From: Melioribacteraceae bacterium | GTDB lineage: Bacteria; Bacteroidota; Ignavibacteria; Ignavibacteriales; Melioribacteraceae | Direction: 5' to 3' | Length of the DNA: 42,353 nt | Assembly (NCBI GenBank): GCA_021647785.1 | Contig: JAKIUC010000039.1 | Location: forward strand, 1-42,353 | Part shown: positions 3,894 through 42,353 of the stretch, one piece after another | Layout: each line of letters begins with the position of its first letter | Numbering within the stretch: the stretch's first letter is position 1 | Translations under genes and position numbers: made by a program | The notes under the pieces: generated by a model | What the model saw: the letters and a program-made list of their open reading frames with translations, nothing else | Told to the model about the DNA's origin: nothing | Databases searched by the model: none

Positions 3894-4859
3894 TCAATCA
3901 CCATTACTAAATTTTTCATAGGCATTAATAATATCCTTCACTAACTTATGACGAACAACATCCCCCTTATTAAAGTAAGTAAAGCCAACACCATCAACAT
4001 TTTGGAGAATATCTTTAACCTGAACTAATCCGCTATCACTTCTTCTCGGTAGATCAATCTGAGTAATATCTCCGGTAATAATTGCTTTGGAGTTTGGTCC
4101 AAGTCGTGTTAAAAACATTTTCATCTGCATTGGGGTTGAGTTTTGTGCTTCATCAAGAATTACATACGCATTGTTTAATGTTCTACCACGCATAAACGCA
4201 AGGGGTACTATTTCAACAATACCTCGCTCAAGATAGTTTTTTATTTGTTCTTTAGAAAGCATATCCTGAAGAGCATCGTATAGAGGTCTCAAGTATGGGT
4301 CAATCTTATCTCGGAAATCGCCTGGTAAAAAACCTAAACTTTCACCGGCTTCAACTGCAGGGCGTGCAAGAACAATTCTTTCAACAATTCCCTTTTTTAG
4401 AGCAGCTACTGCAAAAGCAACTGCGAGATATGTTTTACCTGTACCAGCAGGTCCAATTGCAAAACAAATATCGTTTCTCGTTACACTCTCAAAGTACTCA
4501 ATTTGGTTAGGTGTTTTTGCCCTTATTACATCTTTCTTAGAATATAGAACTATACTATTATATTCATCATCTGAGATTATCTCTTTTCCAGAAACTGTTA
4601 AATCAATTATTGTTATTACATCATTAGAGTCTAATACGCCTGTTGTATTCAGTACATAAATCATCTCTTTAATAATTTTTTCAATATTATTAACTTCATC
4701 AGCAGGTCCTTTGATAGTTGCTTTGTCACCTCTAATTGTAAACGTAGAAGTGAATCTATCTTCAATTGGTTTTATATTTTTATCGTTAGGACCTAATAAT
4801 AGTTGAATATCAACATTCTCAATCTCAATGTGCTTCTCTATTTGCGTAATAACCTCCAT
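3894..4859 (-). CDS. PhoH family ATPase (PhoH-like)
   Basis: A 321-residue cytoplasmic ATPase of the PhoH family, whose members are linked to RNA metabolism and often neighbour ybeY. The N-terminal ~75 residues form a KH-like region (TIRGDKATIKGP), followed by the P-loop GPAGTGKT (136-143), Walker B VILDEAQN (233-240), and the sensor segments ITGDITQIDLPR and SGLVQV. The length matches the usual 310-330. The ATG lies almost directly after the T-run of the upstream gene's terminator and has no visible Shine-Dalgarno, so expression must come from readthrough or a promoter inside the upstream gene. No ybeY or 7TM-HD gene is adjacent here. The exact substrate is unknown. Confidence 0.93.
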   Translation of the reverse strand: MEVITQIEKHIEIENVDIQLLLGPNDKNIKPIEDRFTSTFTIRGDKATIKGPADEVNNIEKIIKEMIYVLNTTGVLDSNDVITIIDLTVSGKEIISDDEYNSIVLYSKKDVIRAKTPNQIEYFESVTRNDICFAIGPAGTGKTYLAVAFAVAALKKGIVERIVLARPAVEAGESLGFLPGDFRDKIDPYLRPLYDALQDMLSKEQIKNYLERGIVEIVPLAFMRGRTLNNAYVILDEAQNSTPMQMKMFLTRLGPNSKAIITGDITQIDLPRRSDSGLVQVKDILQNVDGVGFTYFNKGDVVRHKLVKDIINAYEKFSNGD

Positions 4860-6685: not shown

Positions 6686-7543
6686 TTATTTGATTTTACT
6701 AATATTAGGATTTATACCTTTTGCTTTTTCAAAATATCTATTTGCAATAGGAACATCCTTATTTCTTAAATGCCAATTCCCAATTAAATGTAATATTTCT
6801 GCTGATGAATCTGAATTGTCCATTGCATTTGAAAGTTTCTCTTCGGCTTTATGAATCTCATCTAACAGAACAAATATTTTAATCTGAAAATGTCGCCAAG
6901 CAATAACCGAAGGATTTAATTTTAATGCTCTCCTAATCGATTCGTTTGCATGATAATACATCTCTTTCCTGAAATAAATCTCGGCTTCAATTTTATAAGT
7001 TTCTGCATTATTCGGTGAGAGTTCAATCGAATTTTTTATAGCTTTTAAAGCATTTTCAATTTGGTTATTTCGTAAATATATTTTTGAAACATAGAATAAA
7101 ACACTCGGTAATAATTCTGAGGAATTATAATCTTTCAAAAATTCATTGAAAATCTTTATGGAATTTTCAAGATTATTAATATGAAAATTAACAACTCCTT
7201 TAAGAAAATCCATGTTTTCATCTTTTACATTTTCATATTTACTAATAAATTTTGAGGCTTCATCAAAAAGAGAATTTCGAACAAGATAGTAGCTAACAAG
7301 TTTAATTACTTCTTCGTCGCTGCTATTTTTTTTCAGATAACTATCAAAAAGTTCTATTGCCGATTTCGTATTTCCACTTTGGTCGTATAAATCAGCCAAT
7401 TTTATTGTAGCATTTCTCTCAGCCTCTTTCTGTGTAAGCAATTTTTTGTATATCTGTATTGCCGCTAACTGATTCCCTTCTGTAAGCAAAACAGAAGCTC
7501 TCTTAAAATTTGCTTCAATATTTAAAGTATCTGTTATTCCCAT
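6686..7543 (-). CDS. Tetratricopeptide repeat protein
   Basis: A 285-residue protein built almost entirely of TPR motifs, for example LLTEGNQLAAIQIYKKLLTQ, IELFDSYLKKNSSDEEVIKL, ALKAIKNSIELSPNNAETYK, ANESIRRALKLNPSVIAWR and ANRYFEKAKGINPNISK. There is no signal peptide or membrane segment, so it is probably a cytoplasmic scaffold. Its ATG overlaps the end of guaA by 10 bases, which implies translational coupling. The partner is unknown. TPR proteins next to guaA have no general functional meaning that I know of. Confidence 0.8.
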   Translation of the reverse strand: MGITDTLNIEANFKRASVLLTEGNQLAAIQIYKKLLTQKEAERNATIKLADLYDQSGNTKSAIELFDSYLKKNSSDEEVIKLVSYYLVRNSLFDEASKFISKYENVKDENMDFLKGVVNFHINNLENSIKIFNEFLKDYNSSELLPSVLFYVSKIYLRNNQIENALKAIKNSIELSPNNAETYKIEAEIYFRKEMYYHANESIRRALKLNPSVIAWRHFQIKIFVLLDEIHKAEEKLSNAMDNSDSSAEILHLIGNWHLRNKDVPIANRYFEKAKGINPNISKIK

Positions 7544-16845: not shown

Positions 16846-18126
16846 TTACACGGGAATCACAGTTCTATCTTTTGGTACTGAAGTCCATCTAAATGCATCA
16901 GTTGGGCACAAATCGAAACAAGTAGAACACCCTGTACATTTATATGCATCAACTAAAGCAACAATACCTTTTTTGTTTTTACCTTCCCATCCTTTACCTT
17001 CTTTCATCTCAATTGCATAACAATGACCAATAGGCATACATAGTTCGCAACCAATACATTTGGGTTCATTAACAATAGCCACAGCCTCAGTGAGGTGTAA
17101 CGATTTTGCAGTTCTAACTTCAGGAACAATTGTATCTCTCATTGCTTTGAACGTAGCGTAATTATTCCGTTCCATATATTTTTTTAGTTGAGTAATTTCT
17201 TTGTGCAGAAAATCAAATCCACGAAGCATAGTTTCAGTACACATACCAATTAGGTCTGCTCCCATCATAGTCATTTCAATATAATCTTTCCACTTCGCCA
17301 TTCCACCATAACCACAGACGGAAACCAAAGATCCGTTATATTTCCGTATTTCATAAACATCTCTTAGTGCCAATGGTTTTAACCATGGTCCTGATAAACA
17401 CGTAATCGATGGTTCATCTTGCAGCATTTGAGAACTTAGTTTAGGATTATTAATATCAGGTATCGGTGGAACTCCTAAACGATTACCAACACTTGAAACA
17501 ACATCGGCACCAGCATCAAACGCAGCTTTTGAGACTTGTGCAATATTGCCCCCTTCTGGTGTAATCTTTGCAAACAATGGAATATTAGTCTCTGCCTTTA
17601 CCGCTCTTACAACTTCAGCAACAAGGTGAGGGCTGCGCCCCATTGAAGCTCCGGTACATTTTTTGATTTCATCTCCTGTAACTTCAACATTAAACGACAT
17701 ATTTGGACAGCACATATTTAACTCATTTCCATCAGCACCTGCATCCTCAAATGCTTTAGCCATTCGTACCCAGCCTTCAACCCCATCTGGTCCATCATAG
17801 GTTATGTTGCTCATTATTTTTGTGACTTTGGCTAATTTCTTACCTTCTTCACAAATTTTTAATGCTTCATCAAGTTTAATTCTTTTCTCGGCAGTAAATG
17901 TATGTAGTTTATCTTTTGCCCACCATCTATAACGGGGTTCTCTATTGATGTATGGTTCAGGGTCAATTGTTAATTTAATAAACGCTGCTCCCCATCCCGC
18001 TTCATCTATTTGTCGAATCATTTCTGTAGTTTTAACTGTAGGTCCTGAACCAACACAAAATGGATTGTGCAATTCAAGTCCCGCTATTTTTGTAGGTAAA
18101 TATGCTTTTTCCTGCATCTCATTCAT
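16846..18126 (-). CDS. PreA-like flavoprotein (dihydropyrimidine/dihydroorotate dehydrogenase fold) with C-terminal ferredoxin
   Basis: A 426-residue fusion of an FMN-binding TIM barrel (about 1-345) and a 2[4Fe-4S] ferredoxin domain. Barrel features include LPTKIAGLELHNPFCVGSGP, ELNMCCPN, GADVVSSVGN and SVCGYGGM; C-terminal clusters are CIGCELCMPIGHC and CTGCSTCFDLCP. This architecture is that of PreA, the catalytic subunit of NAD-dependent dihydropyrimidine dehydrogenase. The first cluster has five residues, not three, before its fourth cysteine. No preT, dihydropyrimidinase or beta-ureidopropionase is near; instead it is the last gene of the sugar-type operon, 39 bases after a Gfo/Idh gene. 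The true substrate may therefore be something other than a pyrimidine. It needs an electron partner that is not visible here. Confidence 0.8.
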   Translation of the reverse strand: MNEMQEKAYLPTKIAGLELHNPFCVGSGPTVKTTEMIRQIDEAGWGAAFIKLTIDPEPYINREPRYRWWAKDKLHTFTAEKRIKLDEALKICEEGKKLAKVTKIMSNITYDGPDGVEGWVRMAKAFEDAGADGNELNMCCPNMSFNVEVTGDEIKKCTGASMGRSPHLVAEVVRAVKAETNIPLFAKITPEGGNIAQVSKAAFDAGADVVSSVGNRLGVPPIPDINNPKLSSQMLQDEPSITCLSGPWLKPLALRDVYEIRKYNGSLVSVCGYGGMAKWKDYIEMTMMGADLIGMCTETMLRGFDFLHKEITQLKKYMERNNYATFKAMRDTIVPEVRTAKSLHLTEAVAIVNEPKCIGCELCMPIGHCYAIEMKEGKGWEGKNKKGIVALVDAYKCTGCSTCFDLCPTDAFRWTSVPKDRTVIPV

Positions 18127-18165
18127 ATCTATCCATCTTCCTTTCTAATATATTTATTTTAGTAA

Positions 18166-19209
18166 TTATAGTTTAACAAGTTTTCCGCTTTTAGCTGATT
18201 CATAAATTGCAAGAACAACTTCCAATGCTTTTAATCCATCCTCACCTCTTGTTCCAACATTAGGTTCTTTATCGTTTATCACGCAATCAATAAAGTGCTC
18301 AATCTCTTTTACATATCCTAATGAAAGAAATTCATCTACCGCTGGTTTTGTCCAACCATGCGTGAAGTCAGCTTTCTCAATCGCATATCCATAACCTGGT
18401 CGGCTGTACACATCAATTGGTGAACCTTTGGTTAAATCTATATGTATATTTCCTTCGGTTCCGTATATCTCAATTTTATCATCCATACCACCTGAAGTAA
18501 TATAGTTTGCTTCTACAAAACCTTTAACTCCATTTTCCATTGTTACTAAAGCTGCTGCCCAGTCTTCGCCAGTATAATTTGTATGTAGTAAGTTTGTATC
18601 GCCACCGGCTGTTGCCATTCCTACAACTTCTTTGATATCACTTCCGGCAAGGAAGGAAACAAATGCAACCGGATGAATTCCGAGATGTATCATTGCTCCG
18701 CCGCCGCAGTATTCTTTTTTCTGTGCATAAATTGAATGAGAACCTGAGTGAGATTCTTTTGCCTTTATGTATAACAGTTTCCCAATGCCGCCTTCTTCAA
18801 CAATTTCTTTTGCACGTATTACAGCAGGTGCAAACAACCAATCTTCAGCATACATTAAGCGTACATTATTTTTCTTACAAACATCAATCATAGCTTGGGC
18901 ATCTGGTATTGTTGTGGCTAACGGTTTTTCACAAATTATATTTTTGATTCCGGCTTCAGCAATATCAACAACTATTTTTTTATGTAAAAAATTTGGAACG
19001 CAAACACTAATCAAATCCAAATCTTCATTTTTTATCATTTCCATATAATCTTCATAAGTTGACGGCACTCCATACTCACTCGAAAATTTTTCTAAATTAT
19101 CTAATGAAGCAACCGCCTGTAGTTTCACTTCAGAAAAACGTTTATACGATTCTGCATGCAACCCTGCAGCAAATTGCGAACCTATTATTCCAACTTTTAT
19201 TTGAGTCAT
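18166..19209 (-). CDS. Gfo/Idh/MocA family oxidoreductase (347 aa)
   Basis: A NAD(P)-dependent sugar or cyclitol dehydrogenase of the glucose-fructose oxidoreductase/inositol dehydrogenase fold. The Rossmann N-terminus is KVGIIGSQFAAGLHAESY, and the nicotinamide-site CEKPLATT carries the catalytic lysine. The C-terminal alpha/beta domain has GGGAMIHLGIHPVAF with the histidine of the second catalytic motif, and EIYGTEGNIHID. The length is typical. It is one of three different Gfo/Idh enzymes in the same operon, between the SDR (40-base gap) and the PreA-like gene (39-base gap). The substrate is unknown; oxidation of a ring hydroxyl to a ketone is the usual reaction. Confidence 0.88.
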   Translation of the reverse strand: MTQIKVGIIGSQFAAGLHAESYKRFSEVKLQAVASLDNLEKFSSEYGVPSTYEDYMEMIKNEDLDLISVCVPNFLHKKIVVDIAEAGIKNIICEKPLATTIPDAQAMIDVCKKNNVRLMYAEDWLFAPAVIRAKEIVEEGGIGKLLYIKAKESHSGSHSIYAQKKEYCGGGAMIHLGIHPVAFVSFLAGSDIKEVVGMATAGGDTNLLHTNYTGEDWAAALVTMENGVKGFVEANYITSGGMDDKIEIYGTEGNIHIDLTKGSPIDVYSRPGYGYAIEKADFTHGWTKPAVDEFLSLGYVKEIEHFIDCVINDKEPNVGTRGEDGLKALEVVLAIYESAKSGKLVKL

Positions 19210-19249
19210 TATTTCTCCTAATAATTTTTTAATATTTTCTTTTCAAAAT

Positions 19250-20044
19250 TTAAATTGTCATTGCTGTAAAGCCGCCATCTACCCGCACAATAGAGCCAGT
19301 AACAAAAGATGCAGCTTTAGATGAAGCTAACCAAATTGTAGCTGCAACAAGTTCATCCGGGTTTCCAAAACGACCCATTGGTGTATGTGCCAATATACTT
19401 GCGACGCGTTCTTTCGTAAGCATTTTTTTATTTTGCTCTGCCGGAAAAAACCCAGGAGCAATAGCATTAACACGAACATTAGCAGTAGCCCATTCTATTG
19501 CAAGAGATTGTGTTAAACTATTTACTGCAGCCTTTGTAGCACTATAAGCAAAGACCTTTGATAGCGGAGGACCCGATGCTACTGAAGAAATATTTATAAT
19601 ACTTCCATCTTTATTATTAAACATCTCTTCACCAAATACTTGGCATCCGAAAAGAATACTTTTTAGATTAATGTCCATTATTTCATCCCACTCTTTCTCA
19701 GTAATTTCAAGAAATGGGGTTTTGCTTGTCATGCCCGGAGCATTAATTAGGATATCAACTTTTCCAAGTTTTTCGTTTATTTCTGCTTTTGCATTAACCA
19801 ATGTTTCCTTATTGGCTGCATCAACTTTTACTGCAATTGTTTTTACACCAATTTTATCAGTAATCTCACCTGCTTTCTTTTCTGCTTTTTCAAAATTTCT
19901 GGCAAGTATGGCAATGTTTGCTCCAGCATTAGCAAGCCCTTCAGCCATTGCACCTGCAAGTACTCCACTTCCCCCAATAACAACGGCGTTTTTATCTTTC
20001 AATCCAAATAAGTTTTCTAAATAATTCACATGCTTCTCAATCAA
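19250..20044 (-). CDS. Short-chain dehydrogenase/reductase (KduD/gluconate 5-dehydrogenase-like)
   Basis: A 264-residue classical SDR. The cofactor motif is VIGGSGVLAGAMAEGLA (about 22-38), the NAG-type motif is NAPGMTSKTP, the catalytic serine lies in NISSVASG (S153/S154), and Y167 and K171 are in YSATKAAVNS. The C-terminal FVTGSIVRVDGGFTAM is typical. The order of features and the N-terminal extension (MIEKHVNYLENLFGLKDKNAV) resemble fructuronate/gluconate oxidoreductases of hexuronate clusters. It is separated from the aldolase gene by 6 bases, so a keto-sugar-acid reductase or dehydrogenase feeding the kinase/aldolase steps is the best inference. Confidence 0.85.
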   Translation of the reverse strand: MIEKHVNYLENLFGLKDKNAVVIGGSGVLAGAMAEGLANAGANIAILARNFEKAEKKAGEITDKIGVKTIAVKVDAANKETLVNAKAEINEKLGKVDILINAPGMTSKTPFLEITEKEWDEIMDINLKSILFGCQVFGEEMFNNKDGSIINISSVASGPPLSKVFAYSATKAAVNSLTQSLAIEWATANVRVNAIAPGFFPAEQNKKMLTKERVASILAHTPMGRFGNPDELVAATIWLASSKAASFVTGSIVRVDGGFTAMTI

Positions 20045-20050
20045 TAATTG

Positions 20051-20788
20051 TTATTTATATTTTTCTGCAAATACTTTTAATGATTCTCTAATTATTTCAA
20101 CATCGCCCGGCTTCCCCTCTTTTTCAACTAATGCAAGTGGAGATGACATACCAAGAATTGGTGTATAACCAGCACCGGAAATAGCTTTTTTATATCCAGG
20201 AGCAGTTTCAAAATTAACACCACCTGTTGGCATAATAATTTTTCCGTTGTGCCTTTCGCGAACAAAGGGTGCTAATAAACCACCAATTCCTGAAGCACCT
20301 AACACTCCGGCTGGAAATACTTTAATTGCATCTGGTTCTAATCCATCTGGGCGTTCCATAAAATAATTAAATTCTGTAGGAGTCATAATTGCAGGAGCAG
20401 AAAATATTTCAACCTCTTGTGTTATTTTAATAAATTCTTTTCCTTCTGCATAACCACCCATCACATTGCCTGGTGCAACAATCATCTCAAATCCCATTTC
20501 AATTGCCTGCTCCAACTCTGATGGATTGATGATACTTCCGCATCCCAAAACAAAAGGATTATCCGCTGGTGATTCTTCACGCAATTTTACAAGTTCAACC
20601 ATTCCTTCTTTTAGAATAGCCGGGTCAATACGAAAAGTAGTTTCGGCAACATATCCTGCTTTATATACTTCAACCATTGTTGTAACAAGGTCTTCCGGTT
20701 TTTGAACATGTTTTTTATTTATTACAACAACTACTTCACTTTTAATTAGCGCTGCTCTAACTTTTTTTCTATCGTATTGATAACTCAT
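20051..20788 (-). CDS. KHG/KDPG-type aldolase family protein
   Basis: A 245-residue class I aldolase of the Eda family, which cleaves 2-keto-3-deoxy-6-phosphogluconate to pyruvate and glyceraldehyde 3-phosphate. The Schiff-base lysine is K156 in DAIKVFPAG, the general-base glutamate is E49 in VAETTFRI, and the phosphate/substrate-site pieces are VAPGNVMGG and MPTGGVNFE. It is longer than the ~210-residue Eda, with extra N-terminal sequence. The PfkB kinase upstream in the operon would supply the phosphorylated substrate. The pyruvate-handling chemistry is well supported; the precise substrate is inferred. GGAG precedes the ATG. Confidence 0.88.
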   Translation of the reverse strand: MSYQYDRKKVRAALIKSEVVVVINKKHVQKPEDLVTTMVEVYKAGYVAETTFRIDPAILKEGMVELVKLREESPADNPFVLGCGSIINPSELEQAIEMGFEMIVAPGNVMGGYAEGKEFIKITQEVEIFSAPAIMTPTEFNYFMERPDGLEPDAIKVFPAGVLGASGIGGLLAPFVRERHNGKIIMPTGGVNFETAPGYKKAISGAGYTPILGMSSPLALVEKEGKPGDVEIIRESLKVFAEKYK

Positions 20789-20836
20789 TTAATTTCTCCT
20801 GTTAATTTTTTGTTACACAAGATTTGAGATTCTTAC

Positions 20837-20856
20837 TCTTAATTCTTACTCTTAAT
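20837..20856. repeat. Distal arm of an inverted repeat flanking the S23 gene
   Basis: Twenty bases, perfectly complementary to 21327-21346 on the other side of the four-helix-bundle gene. It sits in a simple-sequence stretch (20828-20865) made of repeated ATTCTTACTCTTA-type units. ACAAGATT (20817-20824) and AATCTTGT (20861-20868) form a further short inverted repeat around it. Confidence 0.8.
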
Positions 20857-20871
20857 TCTTAATCTTGTATC

Positions 20872-21288
20872 TTAATTCTCTCTCTTATCACCATCAGCAT
20901 GATATTCAACACTTGGTTCATACACTCTATAATTAGAGTTACTCTTAATTAATCCAACCAACATTGATACAACTTCTTTCAACAAAGATTTCCCTTTATA
21001 AAGTTCTTCTTCAGAAATTTTATTCTTTATGTATTGAATATCTAATCCACTGGCACATTCTAATGATGAACCTCGTGCTATATCAAAATATTTACATCTA
21101 TCTTTACTCGTAAACTTACCATTTCCCTCTGCAATATTGAGCGGAATTGAAGATGATGCTCGTTCCAACTGACTTTTGTACGATGCACCTATTTTCTTTT
21201 GAAATATTATCTCGAAAAATGAAATTACTTCTAACGCTCTTTGATAAACAATAAGTTTCTCGTGATCAAAAAATATTTTCTCTTTCAT
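20872..21288 (-). CDS. Four-helix-bundle (23S rRNA intervening sequence / S23) protein
   Basis: A 138-residue protein of the S23/IVP four-helix-bundle family. The pattern FDHEKLIVYQRALEVISF, QLERASSSIPLNIAEGNGKFTSKDRCKYFDIARGSSLECASGL and LLKEVVSMLVGLIKS is typical. Relatives are encoded in intervening sequences of 23S rRNA and, more distantly, include the Avd accessory protein of diversity-generating retroelements. They form pentameric basic bundles that may bind nucleic acid. The gene sits inside a metabolic operon, surrounded by inverted repeats that its neighbours lack. The gap from the kinase stop to the aldolase start is 657 bases, against 50 or less elsewhere in the operon, so it looks like an insertion. 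Its function is unknown. Confidence 0.88.
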   Translation of the reverse strand: MKEKIFFDHEKLIVYQRALEVISFFEIIFQKKIGASYKSQLERASSSIPLNIAEGNGKFTSKDRCKYFDIARGSSLECASGLDIQYIKNKISEEELYKGKSLLKEVVSMLVGLIKSNSNYRVYEPSVEYHADGDKREN

Positions 21289-21318
21289 TATTTTTCTCCA
21301 CTATAGATTTACAAATGC

Positions 21319-21420
21319 AGATTAAGATTAAGAGTAAGAATTAAGATTATGATATTTTTCAAACAAATTATATTTTTTTTATTTTTCAACCGTTTTAATT
21401 CTTAATCCTAATCTTAATCT
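21319..21420. repeat. Hairpin-forming inverted repeat upstream of the S23 gene
   Basis: Arms 21319-21344 and 21395-21420 are 26 bases each and match as inverted copies at 24 of 26 positions, with a 50-base T-rich loop. The inner part of the first arm (21327-21346) also pairs perfectly with 20837-20856 on the far side of the gene, so two alternative foldings exist. Confidence 0.8.
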
Positions 21421-21445
21421 TTTTCATATTGCTTTATTTAATATT

Positions 21446-22597
21446 CTACCTAATTGCCTTTACACCACCGCCAGATTTTGCACGCTTCACTTCGCGTTCA
21501 ATATCTTTAACAGTAACCATTGTAAAATCGCCTGGAGTTTCTTGAACCAAAATACCATGAGCAGCTCCCCACTCAACAGCAGTCTGCAAACCCTTACCAT
21601 ACATAAGTGCTGATAGCACTCCAGAAGTAAATGAATCGCCACCGCCGGTTCTATCAGCAATGGGAATATTTTCACGCAATGGTGCAACATAAAATTTATC
21701 ATTTATTGCATCATACAATACAGCACCCCAATGAATTAAATCGGCATTAACAGCACCACGCCATTGTGTACCAATAAGAGAAAGATTTGGAAAATCGTTT
21801 GAAAGTTTTTTAACTGTTACTTTATATGCTTCAAGCCATTCTTCAAAAGTGGCACCTTTTTTAGTTTCAGTTTCGTAACCGAGTGCATCGCTTAAATCGG
21901 AATCGTTACCAACAAGGAAGCCGAGATAAGAGACAATATTTTTATTGATTGCACGAGCAACTGATTTATCGGGTTGAACTTTGGAACGGTAATTTAAATC
22001 AGCAGCAACTAACACACCATTTTCATTGGCTTTTAGTACTGCTTCCATTGCAACTTCTGCGGAACTATCTGAAAGCAATGTAAATATACCGCCAGTGTTA
22101 AATGTGCGAACTCCTTCTTCACCAAAAAGTTTATTCCAGTTAAAATCATTTTTTTTAAGTTCGCGTATTGCAGAGTGGGCACGGTAATAAACAGTATCGG
22201 AAGGAATTACCCCCTTGCCGTTATAAGTAAAATTAATTCCATTTGTTAAACCGCCTTTTTGGTCTGTGCTATGTGCAGAGCCATCGTTGTTTGTGTTAAA
22301 CCAAATAATGTTTGAAGTATCAACGCCAACTTCCCTCATCTGATTGCGAATATTCAATCCAATGTTATCATCAACTAAAGCTGTTAATACTGTGCTGCGT
22401 AACCCAAATGTGTATGATAACCCACAGGCTACATTTGTTTCGCCACCACCTTGTGATACTCGCAACTGCCTTGCTCTTGCTGTGGGAACATCGTATGGGT
22501 CAATGCGTAACATAACTTCGCCGAGAGACATTCCATCATATTTGCAGCTTTCTGCCGATTTAATTTCATTATACTTTACTACTTTTCCCAATTTCAT
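21446..22597 (-). CDS. PfkB family sugar kinase (2-keto-3-deoxygluconate kinase-like)
   Basis: A 383-residue ribokinase-fold kinase. The opening is SLGEVMLRIDP, the substrate region is RVSQGGGETNVACGLSYTFG, and the C-terminal motif is RTGGGDSFTSGVLSAL with catalytic base D321; the usual GAGD reads GGGD. It is longer than typical KDG kinases (~310-340) because of a lysine-rich start and inserts around residues 105-150. In the operon order it comes immediately before the aldolase, separated only by the S23 element, which supports phosphorylation of a 2-keto-3-deoxy sugar acid. The substrate could be another keto-acid. The gene starts 30 bases after the 2-hydroxyacid dehydrogenase. Confidence 0.85.
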   Translation of the reverse strand: MKLGKVVKYNEIKSAESCKYDGMSLGEVMLRIDPYDVPTARARQLRVSQGGGETNVACGLSYTFGLRSTVLTALVDDNIGLNIRNQMREVGVDTSNIIWFNTNNDGSAHSTDQKGGLTNGINFTYNGKGVIPSDTVYYRAHSAIRELKKNDFNWNKLFGEEGVRTFNTGGIFTLLSDSSAEVAMEAVLKANENGVLVAADLNYRSKVQPDKSVARAINKNIVSYLGFLVGNDSDLSDALGYETETKKGATFEEWLEAYKVTVKKLSNDFPNLSLIGTQWRGAVNADLIHWGAVLYDAINDKFYVAPLRENIPIADRTGGGDSFTSGVLSALMYGKGLQTAVEWGAAHGILVQETPGDFTMVTVKDIEREVKRAKSGGGVKAIR

Positions 22598-22627
22598 TTC
22601 TCCATTTATTATTAGAGTTAATATTAA

Positions 22628-23635
22628 TTATATTAAAACTTCTTTATTTACAACGTGGGTTGGGGTTTTGTCATTAACAAAGTCTATTACTGCTTCTGTT
22701 GACATTATCTGCATTCCAATTTTACCTGAATCTGTATCGGAACCAACGTGAGAACTTACAATAATATTCAGACTTTCATCCAATGGTAAATCTTTTTCTA
22801 ACCAGATTTCATCAAGTCCGTAACCCCATATTTTGCCGGCTTTAACAGCATTATATATTGCCCGATTATCGGTAAGAATTCCACGAGCACAATTTACAAG
22901 CACAGTTGTCTCTTTCATTAAATCAAGTTCTTTTTCTCCAATAAGCTGTTCACTTCCAGAAGCATGAATTGTAATAATATCACTCTGCTTGTAAAGTTCT
23001 TCGAGAGTAACATAGATAGCATTGTTCTCTACAGCCCAGTAAACATTGGGGTAAAGGTCGTATGCAAGAATTTCTACATCATAACCTCTCATTAGTTTTG
23101 CGACATTTTTACCTATTGTACCGGTTCCAATAATGCCAAGTTTTTTATTTGTAACATCCAAACGTGATGGACCTTCTTTTACCTTTCCGTTACTCGCCGT
23201 TGCGTAGTGTGCCATTCTGCGACCGGCAACATCCATTATTGTTGATTGCGTCCACTCGGCTGTTGGCATTGCATTACAGCCAGGTGCGTTTGTTACTATC
23301 ACTCCAAACTCTGTGGCTGCTTCAATATCAACAGAGATATATCCAATGCCGTATCTGGAAATTAGTTCTAAACTACCACCCATTTTTATTCCAACTTGAG
23401 AAAGCAAAGTTCGGTCATAAACTTCCAAATCGGCAATGACAGCTATAACATTTTCAAGTTCCTCAATAGCCAAAGGTTCTTCCGGATTTCTATCGCATCT
23501 ATATATCACTTTAATAGTATCACTAAATTTTGCTTCTAAGTCAGCAAGCATTTGTTTTGCTTTCCCTTCATCTTTGGGATTGCTTAATAAATCATCCAGA
23601 AAACTTGTTGCTAAAACTAAAATTATTTTATTCAT
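22628..23635 (-). CDS. D-isomer-specific 2-hydroxyacid dehydrogenase (phosphoglycerate dehydrogenase-like)
   Basis: The frame is open from 23659, but the ATG at 23633-23635 follows AAGGAAAT and gives the standard start MNKIILVLATSF; the product is 335 residues. It is an NAD-dependent 2-hydroxyacid dehydrogenase. The Rossmann motif is GTIGKNVAKLM, and the catalytic Arg is in VNCARGILTD, with downstream GLDEIW and the histidine in VSSHVGSDT. No ACT domain follows, so it is not SerA of the regulated kind. It would interconvert a 2-keto acid and a 2-hydroxy acid in this pathway. The substrate is unknown. Gaps to its neighbours are 30 and 33 bases. Confidence 0.85.
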   Translation of the reverse strand: MNKIILVLATSFLDDLLSNPKDEGKAKQMLADLEAKFSDTIKVIYRCDRNPEEPLAIEELENVIAVIADLEVYDRTLLSQVGIKMGGSLELISRYGIGYISVDIEAATEFGVIVTNAPGCNAMPTAEWTQSTIMDVAGRRMAHYATASNGKVKEGPSRLDVTNKKLGIIGTGTIGKNVAKLMRGYDVEILAYDLYPNVYWAVENNAIYVTLEELYKQSDIITIHASGSEQLIGEKELDLMKETTVLVNCARGILTDNRAIYNAVKAGKIWGYGLDEIWLEKDLPLDESLNIIVSSHVGSDTDSGKIGMQIMSTEAVIDFVNDKTPTHVVNKEVLI

Positions 23636-23668
23636 AATTTCCTTATTCCTTAATATCATTAACTTATT

Positions 23669-24733
23669 TCAGATGAAATTTTCATCAATAAATTTATCAA
23701 TTTTAATTACTTCATTTAATTTGGCTGATTCGTATATAGCCTTTACTATAGCAAGTGAAGCAATACTTTCCTTACCTGAAATTGGTGGTGTTTTTTTATT
23801 TTTAATAGCATCGGCAATTGCTTCAAACTGTTTCAAATGAGGTGTAAAAGATAATCCATCAAGTGGAGATGAAGCCCCGCTGTTTGATGCTTCGTTTTCG
23901 ATTTCAGAATTAGTGAGTGGTTTATCAAACGTTACAATTTCAAATGCGTCACCTACTAATGTGGCAGTTCCTTTTTCACCATGTATTTCAATTTTGCGTG
24001 GTACTGCTGGATGAATTGAGGTAGAGGCTTCAATTACACCTATGGCACCATTATTAAATCGTAAAACGGCTGCTGCAGAATCTTCACCTTCAATTCGCTT
24101 ATGTGTAAAAGTTCCTACTTCTCCGTAAACAGTTTTAACTCCATTCATTAACCATTGAAGTATATCTATAGTGTGAATTGCCTGATTGATTAAAACGCCG
24201 CCGCCATCAAGTTCAAACGTCCCTCTCCACTCTGCACTATCGTAATATGCTTGATCTCTATACCACTTAACATAAGCAGCCCCTTGAAATATTTTTCCCA
24301 AGTCTCCATCATCAATAGATTTTTTCATTTTTATTACACTATCCATAAAGCGACTTTGATAAATGACAGCAAGGCTAACCTTATTCTTTTCACATTCCGA
24401 GATTAGCATTTTAGCTTTTTTAAGTGAAACTTCAATTGGTTTTTCAACAATAACATGCTTCCCTTTTTCAGCAGCCAATTTCCCATAATTATAATGCGTA
24501 CCACTTGCAGTACAAATCACAACTGCATTCAATCTTTTATCTTCAATAAATTCATCCCAATCATTAGAGAATTTTGCATCATACTTTTCCCCTAAAATTT
24601 TTGCTCTATTGATATCCCTACTAAATAGTGATATCAAATTACAATTACTACTATTCTTAATAGCTTCTGCATGTATAGCTGAAATAACACCGCAGCCAAT
24701 TATACCTATACCTAATTTTTTTGAATCACTCAT
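23669..24733 (-). CDS. Gfo/Idh/MocA family oxidoreductase (354 aa)
   Basis: The frame can start at a TTG (24748), but the ATG at 24731-24733 gives the usual start MSDSKKLGIGIIGCG, so 354 residues. The Rossmann motif GIIGCGVISAIHAEA is followed by VIVEKPIEVS (catalytic lysine) and the C-terminal GGGVLINQAIHTIDILQWL with the conserved histidine. EIHGEKGTATLVGD is the usual beta-sheet segment. This is the second of three Gfo/Idh enzymes in the operon; it is clearly different from the 347- and 424-residue ones, so they probably act on different intermediates rather than being recent duplicates. It lies between the aminotransferase (31 bases) and the 2-hydroxyacid dehydrogenase (33 bases). Confidence 0.87.
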   Translation of the reverse strand: MSDSKKLGIGIIGCGVISAIHAEAIKNSSNCNLISLFSRDINRAKILGEKYDAKFSNDWDEFIEDKRLNAVVICTASGTHYNYGKLAAEKGKHVIVEKPIEVSLKKAKMLISECEKNKVSLAVIYQSRFMDSVIKMKKSIDDGDLGKIFQGAAYVKWYRDQAYYDSAEWRGTFELDGGGVLINQAIHTIDILQWLMNGVKTVYGEVGTFTHKRIEGEDSAAAVLRFNNGAIGVIEASTSIHPAVPRKIEIHGEKGTATLVGDAFEIVTFDKPLTNSEIENEASNSGASSPLDGLSFTPHLKQFEAIADAIKNKKTPPISGKESIASLAIVKAIYESAKLNEVIKIDKFIDENFI

Positions 24734-24764
24734 ATAATTTTTTCTCAATTGAAATTTCTATCAA

Positions 24765-26126
24765 TTATAAGACTTCGTTGCAGACCTCTTTTAAAACAGA
24801 GAGTCCTTCAACTAATGCTTCTCTCGTTATCATTAGTGGTGGTGCAATTTTAACACACCTTCCACCAATGCCAACTGGCGAAAACAATAAGAGACCTTTT
24901 TGAAAACAACCTTCATTAATTTTATATGCTGTTTTTTGATCTGCTTCATTTGTATTTGGTTTTACTATTTGCATTCCTGCAACAAGACCTTCGCATGTAA
25001 CCAATCCTATTCTATCAGAATGTTTCTGCTGAATTTCTATTAGTCCTTCTTTTAACACTTTGCCTAACTCAGCAGAATTTTCAGTCATCTTCTCATCTTT
25101 AAGAGCTTTCAAATTTGCAATTGCTGCAACAACCGGTAATGGACTTGCAGAGTGTGTTGAAGTCATACTTCCCGGAGGATAGATATCCATCACATCATTA
25201 CGTCCTATAACCGCTGAAATTGCTAAGGAAGAAGAAATCCCTTTGCCGCATGCTATTAAATCTGGTTTGATATCATAATGTTCGTAAGCAAACCACTTGC
25301 CTGTGCGACCAAAGCCTGATTGCACTTCATCCATAATTAGTAGTGCATCGTTTTCACTACAGAAAGCTTCAAGTTTTTGAGCATACTCTTTTGGCATAAA
25401 AAATGGTCCCGCCCCTTGATAACTTTCAGTAATAACGCCAGCTATATTTTTTGGTTCTACACCTAAATCTTTAAGTGATTTCAGAAAAAGGTCAAAGCTT
25501 GTATCCTCTTGAAAATACCCGTCAGGGAAAGGAACATTTACAAAACCAGGGTCAAGATTTATAATCCACTCTTTTAATGCTGGAATACCACCCGCCAGCT
25601 GTGCGGCAAGAGTTCTACCATGGAATGAATTGCCAAAGCTTACAATAATGTGTTTATCCTTTCCCCCTTTTTTTACACCATAAGTTCTCGCTAACTTAAT
25701 TGCATTTTCAGTTGCTTCGGAGCCAGTTGATAAAAGAAAAACTTTATCCAATCCGTCAGGTGTATCTTGCTGAAGAAGTTCAACTAACTCAGCACGTTTT
25801 TCGTGATAAAAAACATAAGTTGAAATTAATTCATTATCTATCTCTTCTATTAACGCCTCAATTACTTTGGGGTGTGCATGCCCTGCATTTGCAATAAGAA
25901 CACCAGATGACCAGTCCAGCCACATGTTTCCCCATTTATCATATATTTGAAATCCTTCAGCTTTATCCCAAAATATTGGAGGTTGACCCGACATCGAGAT
26001 TGGTTCATATTTTTCCAATCTCTCTATAATTTCCATCGATTCCGGAACAGGTAATGCAGTAACAATTTTTCTAAATTTAGTATCAACTTTCGGTACATCA
26101 ACAGGAGTACGACTGTAAAATGACAT
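24765..26126 (-). CDS. Class III PLP-dependent aminotransferase
   Basis: A 453-residue fold type I omega-aminotransferase. PLP contacts are visible at STGSEATENAIKLART (phosphate loop, about 133-148), SFHGRTLAA, D266 in LLIMDEVQSGFGRTG (pyridine nitrogen), and the Schiff-base lysine K295 in ACGKGISSS. The C-terminal PLMITREALVEGLSVL is typical. The family includes GabT, beta-alanine-pyruvate and other omega-amino transaminases. In this operon it implies that an amino group is removed from, or added to, a pathway intermediate, which is why an amino-sugar or amino-polyol is a possible substrate. A beta-alanine role beside a PreA-like protein is the alternative, but no other pyrimidine catabolic gene is present. 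Confidence 0.9.
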   Translation of the reverse strand: MSFYSRTPVDVPKVDTKFRKIVTALPVPESMEIIERLEKYEPISMSGQPPIFWDKAEGFQIYDKWGNMWLDWSSGVLIANAGHAHPKVIEALIEEIDNELISTYVFYHEKRAELVELLQQDTPDGLDKVFLLSTGSEATENAIKLARTYGVKKGGKDKHIIVSFGNSFHGRTLAAQLAGGIPALKEWIINLDPGFVNVPFPDGYFQEDTSFDLFLKSLKDLGVEPKNIAGVITESYQGAGPFFMPKEYAQKLEAFCSENDALLIMDEVQSGFGRTGKWFAYEHYDIKPDLIACGKGISSSLAISAVIGRNDVMDIYPPGSMTSTHSASPLPVVAAIANLKALKDEKMTENSAELGKVLKEGLIEIQQKHSDRIGLVTCEGLVAGMQIVKPNTNEADQKTAYKINEGCFQKGLLLFSPVGIGGRCVKIAPPLMITREALVEGLSVLKEVCNEVL

Positions 26127-26176
26127 TAATTTCTCCGCTATTATTTTAATTATTTTTATTCTAAATTTATTTTAAA

Positions 26177-27451
26177 TTATTTATACTCTTTAAATTTTAC
26201 TGTTGGGGTATCGCCATACTCAATAGTTACGGCACGTCCATCATTTAGTATCGACATTCTGCCAGCTTCAATAACAAGTTCGTTAAATGAACTATTTGCT
26301 GGTGTAGCTATAATTCCTTCATCGTCAATTATCTTAATCATTTCTTTACGTGCAGATAATTCATCACTTTTTTCTTGCGAATTATTTTCCACTCGGTGAA
26401 CTGAATTTATTAATCCTTCAATGCTGCGATAACCATATCCCACAGGGGTTAATCCATCTCCACCACGTTCTATTAATTTTAAATAATCAGGACTTGGTTC
26501 GTTGTAATACGAATCCCCTTCAAAATCACTTTTGTTAAGATATGAATGTTTAAGCCCGCGGTATTGGTCATCGTGGAACATCAAACCACCATCTTTTTTG
26601 CCTTGGGTAAAAAGCCAAATACCTTGTGAGTTACCACCAGGTGCTACGTTTGGGTATCCCATTCCATTTATCAATGCAAGGCTTGCTCCGTTTTCCCAAA
26701 TCACATTTGCGTTAGTCCACAAGTAGCCCTCGTTACCATTTGGGTATTTATCCCTAACACCATATACAGAGACCTCTGTTGGAAGCAGCCCGGTAATCAT
26801 ATTTACTTGATCAACATAGTGGCAGCCGATGTAAGTGAACATATCCGAGTTCTCTGTAGTACACCAATTTTGAAAATTAGAATCACGATAATACCACGGC
26901 TCTATTAGGGTTGCATAGCCAACGCGGAACTCACCAAAATCACCTGCACGATATTTTAAACGAGCTATTCCCACTCTATCATCAAAACGTTTGTGATATT
27001 CTGTTGCAACAAATAATCCTTTTGAGTAAGCAAGCTTTTTAATTTCCAACGCTTCATTATAGTTTAACGTTAAAGGCTTTACACTGATTACATGCTGGTT
27101 ATGCTCTAACGCATAGATAATTGCAGAGTAATGTAATTGATCCGGAAGAGCAATAAATACTATGTTTCTCTCTTCCATTTTACCGATAACATCTTTATAC
27201 AATTCAGGAAACATTTTATCTGCAGCTTCTGTTTTATAATCTGGGTATGAATTAAATGTGTGACCAGGGAAGGCTTGTTTAAGCGTTTCATTCTCTGCTA
27301 ATTGCTTTAAGGGCGGTGTGTTAAGTGCACACACATTAATATCTTTAACTGTACTACTACGTTGCAAATAATAAATTGAAGGTATAATCTGCATCTCCGT
27401 TATCATACCACCACCAACAATGGTAACATCTAATGGTTTTGAAATTTTCAT
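26177..27451 (-). CDS. Gfo/Idh/MocA family oxidoreductase (424 aa, divergent)
   Basis: The frame extends to a TTG at 27469, but GGAG sits upstream of the ATG at 27449-27451, giving MKISKPLDVTIVGGGMITEMQ and 424 residues. It is longer than usual Gfo/Idh enzymes. The conserved EKP motif reads VKP (VISVKPLTLN), so the glutamate is missing while the catalytic lysine remains. The C-terminal catalytic area is MFTYIGCHYVDQVNMITGL with a histidine, and a large insert follows (GGNSQGIWLFTQGKKDGGLM). It probably oxidises or reduces a bulky or modified sugar. It starts 20 bases after the deoR stop, so the regulator and this gene are cotranscribed. Confidence 0.82.
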   Translation of the reverse strand: MKISKPLDVTIVGGGMITEMQIIPSIYYLQRSSTVKDINVCALNTPPLKQLAENETLKQAFPGHTFNSYPDYKTEAADKMFPELYKDVIGKMEERNIVFIALPDQLHYSAIIYALEHNQHVISVKPLTLNYNEALEIKKLAYSKGLFVATEYHKRFDDRVGIARLKYRAGDFGEFRVGYATLIEPWYYRDSNFQNWCTTENSDMFTYIGCHYVDQVNMITGLLPTEVSVYGVRDKYPNGNEGYLWTNANVIWENGASLALINGMGYPNVAPGGNSQGIWLFTQGKKDGGLMFHDDQYRGLKHSYLNKSDFEGDSYYNEPSPDYLKLIERGGDGLTPVGYGYRSIEGLINSVHRVENNSQEKSDELSARKEMIKIIDDEGIIATPANSSFNELVIEAGRMSILNDGRAVTIEYGDTPTVKFKEYK

Positions 27452-27471
27452 AAATAATTTACTCCACAATT

Positions 27472-28230
27472 TTATACTAAATTAATTTTCAGTTTTAGCT
27501 TATTAAGTTTATCCTTATACTTTTTACTAATTCCCTTATCTGTAATAATTCTATCTACCTCGTTAATCTTTCCAATATATCCCATCGTCTTCTTTCCAAA
27601 CTTTGATGAATCAGCAATCAGAATTGTTTCGGAGGCTGCTTTAATCATTAATTGATTAAGTTTTGCTTCTTCATAATTAGATGCTGTAAGTCCTTTTTCA
27701 AAATCTACACCATCAACGCCCAAAAATAATTTATCGGCAACTGTGCTATTAATTACGTTTTCTGCAAAACCGCCTGATAGACCAAAAGTAGTTTTATTAA
27801 AAACACCACCTGTTAAAATCAGCTCGTTATCACTTCCAACAATTTCGTTTGCAACATTTAACCCACCTGTAATAATTTTAATACCGCTTCTAAATTTTAA
27901 TCTGCGAGCTATGTGAACAGCCGTAAAACCTGAATCCAGAATTACGACATCCCCTTCGTTAATAAGACTTTCAGCAAAACGGGCAATACGTTCTTTTTCT
28001 TTTAAATTAATTTTCTCTTTTTCGCTAATGGATAAATCTGGCACAACTGATTGGTTAAGTATTCCCCCGCCATGCACTCTGGTTAGAAGACCTTCTTCCT
28101 CAAGGGAATCTAAATCCTTACGTATTGTTACAGGAGAAGTACTATACTCATTACATAAATCATTGATAAGTACTCGTTGTTCAACAGTAACTTTTTTTCT
28201 TATCGCTTCTTTTCTTTCTGCGTTTAACAT
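27472..28230 (-). CDS. DeoR family transcriptional regulator
   Basis: The frame extends to a TTG at 28242, but the ATG at 28228-28230 gives the family-typical start MLNAERKEAIRKKV; the product is 252 residues. The N-terminal HTH (VLINDLCNEYSTSPVTIRKDLDSLEEEGLLTRVHGG) is the DeoR signature. The C-terminal sensor has the SIS-like sugar-phosphate pocket (VVILDSGFTA, ITGGLNVANE, LFLGVDGVDFEKGLTASNYEEA and ILIADSSKFGKK). DeoR regulators respond to phosphorylated sugars and usually repress the operon they lead. It is the first gene of the region, so autoregulation of the whole catabolic operon by a pathway sugar phosphate is likely. Confidence 0.92.
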   Translation of the reverse strand: MLNAERKEAIRKKVTVEQRVLINDLCNEYSTSPVTIRKDLDSLEEEGLLTRVHGGGILNQSVVPDLSISEKEKINLKEKERIARFAESLINEGDVVILDSGFTAVHIARRLKFRSGIKIITGGLNVANEIVGSDNELILTGGVFNKTTFGLSGGFAENVINSTVADKLFLGVDGVDFEKGLTASNYEEAKLNQLMIKAASETILIADSSKFGKKTMGYIGKINEVDRIITDKGISKKYKDKLNKLKLKINLV

Positions 28231-28398
28231 GTTTTGATACAACTATTGCTTTGTTTTTATTTGTTTTTCTTTTTTATACTTAGTAATGTATATATATAGA
28301 GAGATAAATACAAACTTTTAGAAAGGTTTAATGATGTTTAAATTGATTAAGAATGTGTCGCTGCGATGCAGCTATTTTATAATGGGATGTTTTTTCGT
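28231..28398. promoter_or_regulatory. Upstream region of the deoR operon
   Basis: This gap holds the promoter of the operon. On the minus strand TTGTAT, 17 bases, TACATT is the best sigma70-like pair, about 60-90 bases before the ATG. Two adjacent 10-base direct repeats (TTGTTTTTAT and TTGTTTTTCT, plus strand 28251-28270) lie between promoter and start and could be a DeoR operator. No convincing gene is present. Beyond it lies repeat copy 1. Confidence 0.35.
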
Positions 28399-42142: not shown

Positions 42143-42353
42143 CGATAAATTGCAAGTGAAAAGGCAAACGTGAAAAGTGAAAAATTTTCTGCAACAATTC
42201 AGTTTTCTGTTTTTTTGATTTAGGACCAGCAATTCAGAGTCAATTTTAAATTCATAAAAAACAATGATTTATGCAGAAAGCAAAAGATATTTTTCTTGTT
42301 AAATGGAAAAAGTAAAAAAGAAAGGAAATAGAGTTTTATATTAATTTATCACT
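42143..42353. other. Right-edge stretch without recognisable genes
   Basis: After meaB the sequence is A-rich, with degenerate GTGAAAAGTGAAAA words at 42160-42185. No start with a plausible frame, stem or RNA gene is seen before the window ends. Confidence 0.4.

Follow-up and report, generated by a model that had tools for sequence, protein, structure and literature searches.

What is a small S23 gene doing in the middle of a sugar-acid operon, surrounded by inverted arrays of short repeats? The question is raised by a locus of a Melioribacteraceae bacterium (assembly GCA_021647785.1, contig JAKIUC010000039.1), found in a stretch of 42,353 nucleotides, analysed as a whole and hereafter called the window. 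A preliminary description, made from the letters alone, had suggested a mobile or self-processing element related to the intervening sequences (IVSs) of 23S rRNA. The features of the locus, all on the (-) strand, are the following:

20789..21445, (-): whole 657-base gap that carries the insert, between kinase stop and aldolase start; the congener G004 has only 72 bases here and no S23
20872..21288, (-): S23/IVP (four-helix-bundle) gene, 138 aa, frame intact; residues invariant in two alignments are kept
20829..20879, (-): downstream array reaching over the stop codon of S23, its units being AAGATT/AAGAGT/AAGAAT when read on the S23 strand
21319..21353, (-): array adjoining the S23 start, inverted relative to the downstream array; 20-base perfect arm
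21395..21421, (-): third array, inverted relative to 21319-21344 (24/26); 24 bases from the kinase stop codon
21446..22597, (-): PfkB-family sugar-acid kinase (profile matches), upstream neighbour of the S23 gene
20051..20788, (-): KDPG/KHG-type aldolase (profile matches), downstream neighbour of the S23 gene

Read along the S23 strand, the kinase is followed by array (+), loop, array (-), S23, array (+) and finally the aldolase. The perfect 20-base inverted repeat of the preliminary description is confirmed, 20837-20856 and 21327-21346 being reverse complements at 20 of 20 positions, and the arms may be extended to 26 bases at 92% (20831-20856 / 21327-21352). Their score, 53, was reached in 0 of 2000 dinucleotide shuffles, the maximum being 32. 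The second hairpin, in which 21319-21344 pairs with 21395-21420, is equally found (24 of 26 positions), with a score of 42, above the maximum of 2000 dinucleotide shuffles (36). As to the unusual size of the gap, it holds within the sugar-acid operon (16846-28242), where the other gaps measure 2-50 bases, but not for the window at large, where larger gaps occur elsewhere. The arrays are built of short-unit repeats of the AAGANT type, with periods of 6, 7 and 13 bases; simple-sequence growth is therefore part of their nature. A scan of 20600-21700 against Rfam gave no match, nor did the gap, compared as DNA with plasmids.

The S23 protein belongs to the S23/IVP family, as indicated by profile scores above the curated cut-offs (PF05635: E 1.2e-19, 71 bits, cut-off 33.8; TIGR02436: 68.9 bits, cut-off 24) and by a predicted four-helix model (pLDDT 88.4), which matches the S23-family structures 2gsc and 2rld. 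Avd, the accessory protein of diversity-generating retroelements (DGRs), has a similar fold and matches the model less well: the TM-score by target length is 0.86 for 4dwl (Foldseek E 0.035) and 0.80–0.83 for the matched chains of the DGR complexes 8ubb, 8ube, 8ub8 and 8ub7, which we take to be Avd; for the Avd-type chains, identity is 12–14% and E is above 0.001. Among the nine window proteins scanned with profiles, no reverse transcriptase was found, such as would adjoin Avd, together with template and variable repeats, in a DGR. Given the weaker match to Avd, it is a natural guess, and no more than that, that S23 might be a nucleic-acid-binding partner of a reverse transcriptase. One survey of DGRs, in whose data no Pfam family is commoner than PF05635, compares this family with Avd and remarks on their homology (PMC10053308).

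PF05635 genes are common, being found in 77 of the 79 genomes of the bacterial family, and bear no more than labels of the kind 'four helix bundle protein' and 'S23 ribosomal protein'. Under the former name they appear among the strain-specific genes of one genome paper (PMC8700078), and in a table of phage elements in another (PMC5524665). An origin from phages was considered and set aside, as one S23 protein of the family, L018, had no match in 50,697 phage records.

The empty site proposed as a check of mobility was looked for in the relatives. At E values up to 1e-30, the aldolase is found in two of the 79 family genomes, the window's own and the congener G004. In the latter, the only congener found to contain the operon, kinase and aldolase are 92% and 89% identical in protein, lie 72 bases apart, and have neither an S23 gene nor such an array between them. 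The preliminary description had held that the same gene and repeats, at the same position in all relatives, would speak against mobility: they are absent from G004. At about 80% DNA identity, the junction cannot be placed to the base, and no target duplication is resolvable. The state of the gap in G004 is probably the ancestral one; as the junction is not base-exact, a deletion in G004 may account for it instead.

Eleven S23 genes above the cut-off are carried by the window's own genome, distributed on 8 contigs and at most 45% alike in protein. For 9 of the 11, the arms score above the 95th percentile of mismatched pairs; their units, by eye, vary between loci. One of these genes, on contig C98, is absent in four out of four congeners, three of which feature 46–55 bases between the matching ends, and the fourth 217 bases of other sequence. 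At another site, that of L001, the gap of the relative G003 where S23 is expected is, by coordinates, only 118 bases long; its length is all that is considered here. Arrays are also present on their own: one with the window-type unit is located at C40:49096-49123, with no S23 gene within the 800 bases read, and about seven copies of GTCATTTATA lie in a co-directional gap of contig C32 (L122:4991-5060), which has no S23 gene. The window itself features a bare GTGAAAA-type array at 42154-42183, near the contig end, with the unit kind found in the arms of L001.

The suggestion to search for other S23 genes with flanking repeats proved fruitful: inverted arrays are general, and their units differ between loci. 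For each S23 gene, the upstream flank was set against its own downstream flank in reverse complement and, as control, against those of other S23 genes. The 77 family genomes with PF05635 matches contain 1–31 each (31 in G043, the highest number). The family loci, which are the best-scoring among the matches listed, plus 12 of the own genome, and not a random sample, were obtained from 118 profile hits, 113 without duplicates, 111 of which have 150-base flanks (none came from L012, L022 and L032). Measured against mismatched pairs, 66 of the 111 have an inverted pair above the 95th percentile, and 42 one above the 99th; for direct repeats, the corresponding numbers are 15 and 11. A similar picture emerges from named genomes, where the best 80 of 561 confirmed loci, including L202 in spite of its 37-aa frame, cover Bacteroidota, Chlorobiota, Chloroflexi, Cyanobacteria, Omnitrophota, Patescibacteria and archaea, among others: inverted pairs pass the 95th percentile in 46/80 and the 99th in 17/80, direct repeats in 13/80 and 8/80. 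For 45 of the 111 family genes and 34 of the 80 named ones, the arm pair is not above the 95th percentile.

S23 genes were also compared with genes of other kinds, in a census of 829 kb from the own genome and four others. An arm score of at least 28 is found for 9 of the 15 scorable S23 genes and 17 of the 320 scorable other genes, flanks being too short to score in 2 of the 17 S23 genes and 324 of the 644 others. One of the 17 non-S23 hits (L144|7898) adjoins an S23 gene, and some others appear, by eye, to be ordinary palindromes. In a first, small control set, the sole hit at 32 or more was an S23 copy itself (L063, the same gene as L037). Tandem arrays are present in 10 of the 21 S23-adjacent gaps, and in 26 of the 311 other gaps of at least 60 bases; one of these 26 adjoins an S23-linked gene of L144. 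On the gene's strand, the average arm is rich in G on the upstream side and in C on the downstream side, a pattern that control genes do not share; the window is an exception, its array near the S23 start being C-rich, opposite to the usual polarity. A comparison covering 186 of the 191 loci finds flanks to be related in most cases where the S23 proteins are more than 65% alike, and in most cases unrelated where they are less similar. Above 70% likeness, most loci are syntenic, which indicates that movement is not frequent. In L144 (7250-8500, genome G049), an S23 gene and a gene which by eye is Cas4-like lie among three arrays of one unit kind; a 17-base pattern taken from this unit has exact matches at four places in G049, and one in each of two of the 78 other family genomes.

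Orientation is strongly biased. Among the 191 loci, 185 have an upstream neighbour no more than 800 bases away, which runs in the direction of S23 in 183; for the downstream neighbour, the number is 170 of 184; for control genes, upstream neighbours are co-directional in 314 of 402, and both neighbours in 269 of 402. In the census, both neighbours are co-directional for all 17 S23 genes and for 382 of the 562 others. Two antisense copies are known, both on plasmids (L233 and L249). The sense orientation, together with the fit between stop and start codon, suggests that S23 is read from the transcript of its host; the pattern may also be the product of selection, rather than of mechanism.

Of 43 plasmid records with an S23 match, 13 were taken; 12 loci were scored, L232 being left out as a near duplicate of L231. 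L242, in one of the 43 records (AP018264), was added through a separate match, and L260 is a further copy in a record already included. Two plasmids of a single Calothrix strain carry L231 and L232, which have one S23 element and its context in common (96.6% identity over 2.65 kb). The arm score exceeds the 95th percentile of mismatched pairs in 8 of the 12 loci and falls below it in four, L235 included.

Empty relatives were sought for seven plasmid sites, among some of the matches listed. One of these sites, in the VirB operon of conjugative plasmids of Nostocales, is occupied in L235 and L242 and empty in L239, L240 and L241, with identities to L235 of 97.3–97.9%. The empty allele reads AAAAAGTAATTAAC and has no array; the filled one features an insert of 414–428 bases, composed of array, S23 and array, with GTAAT on both sides, a base-exact insertion with a 5-base duplication. 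In L235, the base-exact copy, the right array is short, and the arm score is only 22. The same site contains a decayed S23 in L243, and in L246 arrays only, around a different loop. At a second site, between two hypothetical genes, the insert measures 506 bases, with ATG on either side when L253 is compared with L256; in the empty alleles, L256 and L257, the genes overlap or nearly touch, and there is no array. In the relatives read, gene and arrays are missing from the cmr2-cmr3, TraM-hyp, integrase-hyp and nrdB-nrdA sites, but the ends are less exact or unanchored. As to duplications, GTAAT is seen in three filled/empty pairs of the VirB site and ATG at another site, while none is seen at two, and three pairs provide no anchor: a short duplication is thus present at only two plasmid sites, with differing lengths. 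Relatives of plasmid sites with flanks 87–98% identical do not contain S23. The cas6-cas4 site was rejected as a clean empty site, because its 99% identical relative, although devoid of S23, carries another hairpin-like repeat in the gap. In this type I-D operon, S23 lies between cas6 and cas4 (L234:2632-3527), and the right array enters the cas4 reading frame, the start of which differs from that of L238.

A single Flavobacterium site is occupied by S23 and arrays in L155, by two bare arrays in L162, and by neither in L165. A reading of these loci as hopping of one copy is wrong in part. The L155 contig, from one Flavobacteriaceae genome, contains two S23 copies (4001-4360 and 6848-7207) with proteins 97% identical, about 2.5 kb apart; both carry TTGTATAATGTA-type arrays, and the S23 genes of L158 and L165 are in synteny with the second copy. 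Among archaea, the S23 proteins of L196 (ANME-1) and L211 (Methanomicrobiales), both on draft or metagenome contigs, are 94% identical. The main shared stretch runs from -110 to +34 and takes in the AGCGGTTT arrays common to both; outside it, matching is limited to two more pieces, of 45–48 bases.

At the RNA level, one of the folds put forward by the preliminary description, with the S23 gene in a loop, is recovered by prediction: in the minimum-free-energy structure computed for the 657-nt strand, a stem encloses the gene, with a z of -2.99 relative to 20 shuffles. Selection on an RNA stem should leave more G.U than A.C mismatches in the arms, and no significant excess is found: 96 versus 102 over all 191 loci (p 0.72), 78 versus 61 in the non-redundant 150 (p 0.175), and 51 versus 37 for arm scores of at least 36 (p 0.165; 19 loci versus 8). 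Orthologous arms, compared in 51 loci belonging to 18 groups picked by hand, pair with themselves no better than with each other (26 versus 25 of 51), with no lineage-specific compensation. Both RNA-stem selection on the arms, given the non-significant wobble test, and concerted evolution of the arms among orthologues, given the negative pairing test, were accordingly set aside. As neither a significant G.U excess nor compensation between orthologues is seen, the arms are treated here as ends at the DNA level, which may also have a role in RNA. By these two indirect tests, the self-processing part of the preliminary description finds no support; the part concerning a mobile element related to 23S IVSs is supported by the filled and empty sites for the class, and is likely for the window copy.

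We therefore read the window locus as a member of a widespread class of intergenic S23 elements, akin to the IVSs of 23S rRNA and residing in protein operons. At this locus, S23 gene and inverted arrays would form one small mobile element, of about 0.4–0.65 kb, inserted between kinase and aldolase, to which we assign a probability of roughly 0.7. Presence and absence at orthologous sites are documented at the window and G004, at C98, and at the plasmid and Flavobacterium sites.

Three other explanations compete with it. The arms may work as a stem in the operon transcript, where a putative cut by RNase III would free the S23 mRNA and split the operon message, as in 23S rRNA IVSs. Such processing, compatible in itself with mobility, appears rather unlikely, yet it is the alternative to be taken most seriously: nearly all copies are in sense orientation, a stem is predicted around the gene, RNase III excises rRNA IVSs (PMC4990558), and G.U pairs are somewhat more numerous in the non-redundant set, though not significantly so. 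The balance of G.U and A.C over all loci, the lack of compensatory change between orthologues and the two antisense copies point the other way. Arrays may, alternatively, be simple-sequence hairpin hotspots, which arise independently in operon gaps and into which S23 genes recombine as passengers, so that an association, and not one element, is observed. The 26 gaps with bare arrays, the bare array of L162 where L155 has its first S23 copy, and the hairpins published for cyanobacterial gaps such as hupS-hupL (PMC2670836) fit this idea. It is nevertheless improbable, since in the VirB and hyp-hyp empty alleles no array is present and both arrays come with the gene, L165 has no array at the L155 site, and the archaeal pair has arrays and gene in common on contigs which are otherwise different.

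The remaining explanation, an ordinary resident gene of the operon with a regulatory hairpin, lost in the lineage of the congener, is very unlikely. It may draw on the synteny of most S23 loci with proteins more than 70% alike, and on the fact that one relative with the operon was found, the aldolase being confined to two of the 79 family genomes, own included. It has to face the 11 S23 genes of the genome, dispersed on 8 contigs and at most 45% alike, the copy of C98 missing in all four congeners, and the relatives of the plasmid sites, which lack S23 within flanks 87–98% identical.

If S23 gene and arrays are one mobile element, left array, gene and right array would move jointly, and would settle mostly in the gap between a stop codon and the next start of a co-directional operon, to be read, presumably, from the promoter of the host. 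S23 is the only gene of the element, and its product, with an Avd-like fold, may act on the arrays or on their transcript; the hairpin may render the insertion tolerable to the operon. Arrays without a gene would be derivatives or partners of full elements. A bolder version, which we regard as doubtful, makes S23 proteins the mobility proteins of a new class of minimal elements: the Avd-like S23 would bind a transcript folded by the array stems and pass it to a reverse transcriptase or to repair machinery acting in trans, and the arrays would be rebuilt at every insertion, which would explain locus-specific units, inverted symmetry and sense orientation. The IVSs of rRNA would then be a special case, landed in rRNA, and STRR-type hairpins gene-less remnants.

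Should S23 be the core of a minimal mobile element, the purpose of rRNA IVSs and of the S23 protein would become directly testable, and so would the origin of hairpin arrays in operon gaps. A '23S rRNA IVP' is named in a figure legend of a paper on CRISPR association (PMC10910872). S23 copies are found inside cas operons (L234, L248), and insertion in operons, those of cas genes included, may be the plain reason for the presence of the family in such a screen. In the literature searched, where few subscription journals are covered, no account was found that presents S23 genes and the arrays around them as a mobile element of intergenic regions, outside rRNA.

Among known systems, the nearest in anatomy are the IVSs of 23S rRNA with an S23p ORF, as in Coxiella and Leptospira. 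IVSs of rRNA feature this ORF and complementary borders, and are excised by RNase III (PMC4990558); IVP ORFs are also reported in rRNA insertions of CPR bacteria (PMC11270868). Complementary terminal arms around an ORF are present in the window element as well. IVSs are inserted in rRNA genes, in helices 9, 25 and 45 of 23S rRNA (or in 16S), whereas S23 elements occupy the gaps of protein operons; lying between kinase and aldolase, and thus not in rRNA, the window element is not an rRNA IVS by membership. S23 elements also differ in their arms, which are arrays of short degenerate units differing between loci, and in their number, up to 31 matches per genome.

A second likeness is with the STRR repeats of cyanobacteria, hairpins with usually 7-base units and a function given as unknown (PMC2670836). 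Short units and intergenic hairpins are shared, the arms of plasmid S23 loci being similar by eye, and short tandem units with hairpin potential are found in the window gap too, with units of 6–7 and 13 bases, though the term is used for cyanobacteria. The published passage on STRRs assigns them no role as ends of a gene-bearing element, while S23 arrays flank genes and are absent from empty sites.

A third comparison concerns the REP/BIME sequences associated with RAYT genes, where one small gene lies between inverted repeats, and bare repeats are present elsewhere in the genome. S23 elements resemble them in both respects. They differ in that S23 is a four-helix bundle with no known nuclease, and in their units, which are shorter and specific to each locus.
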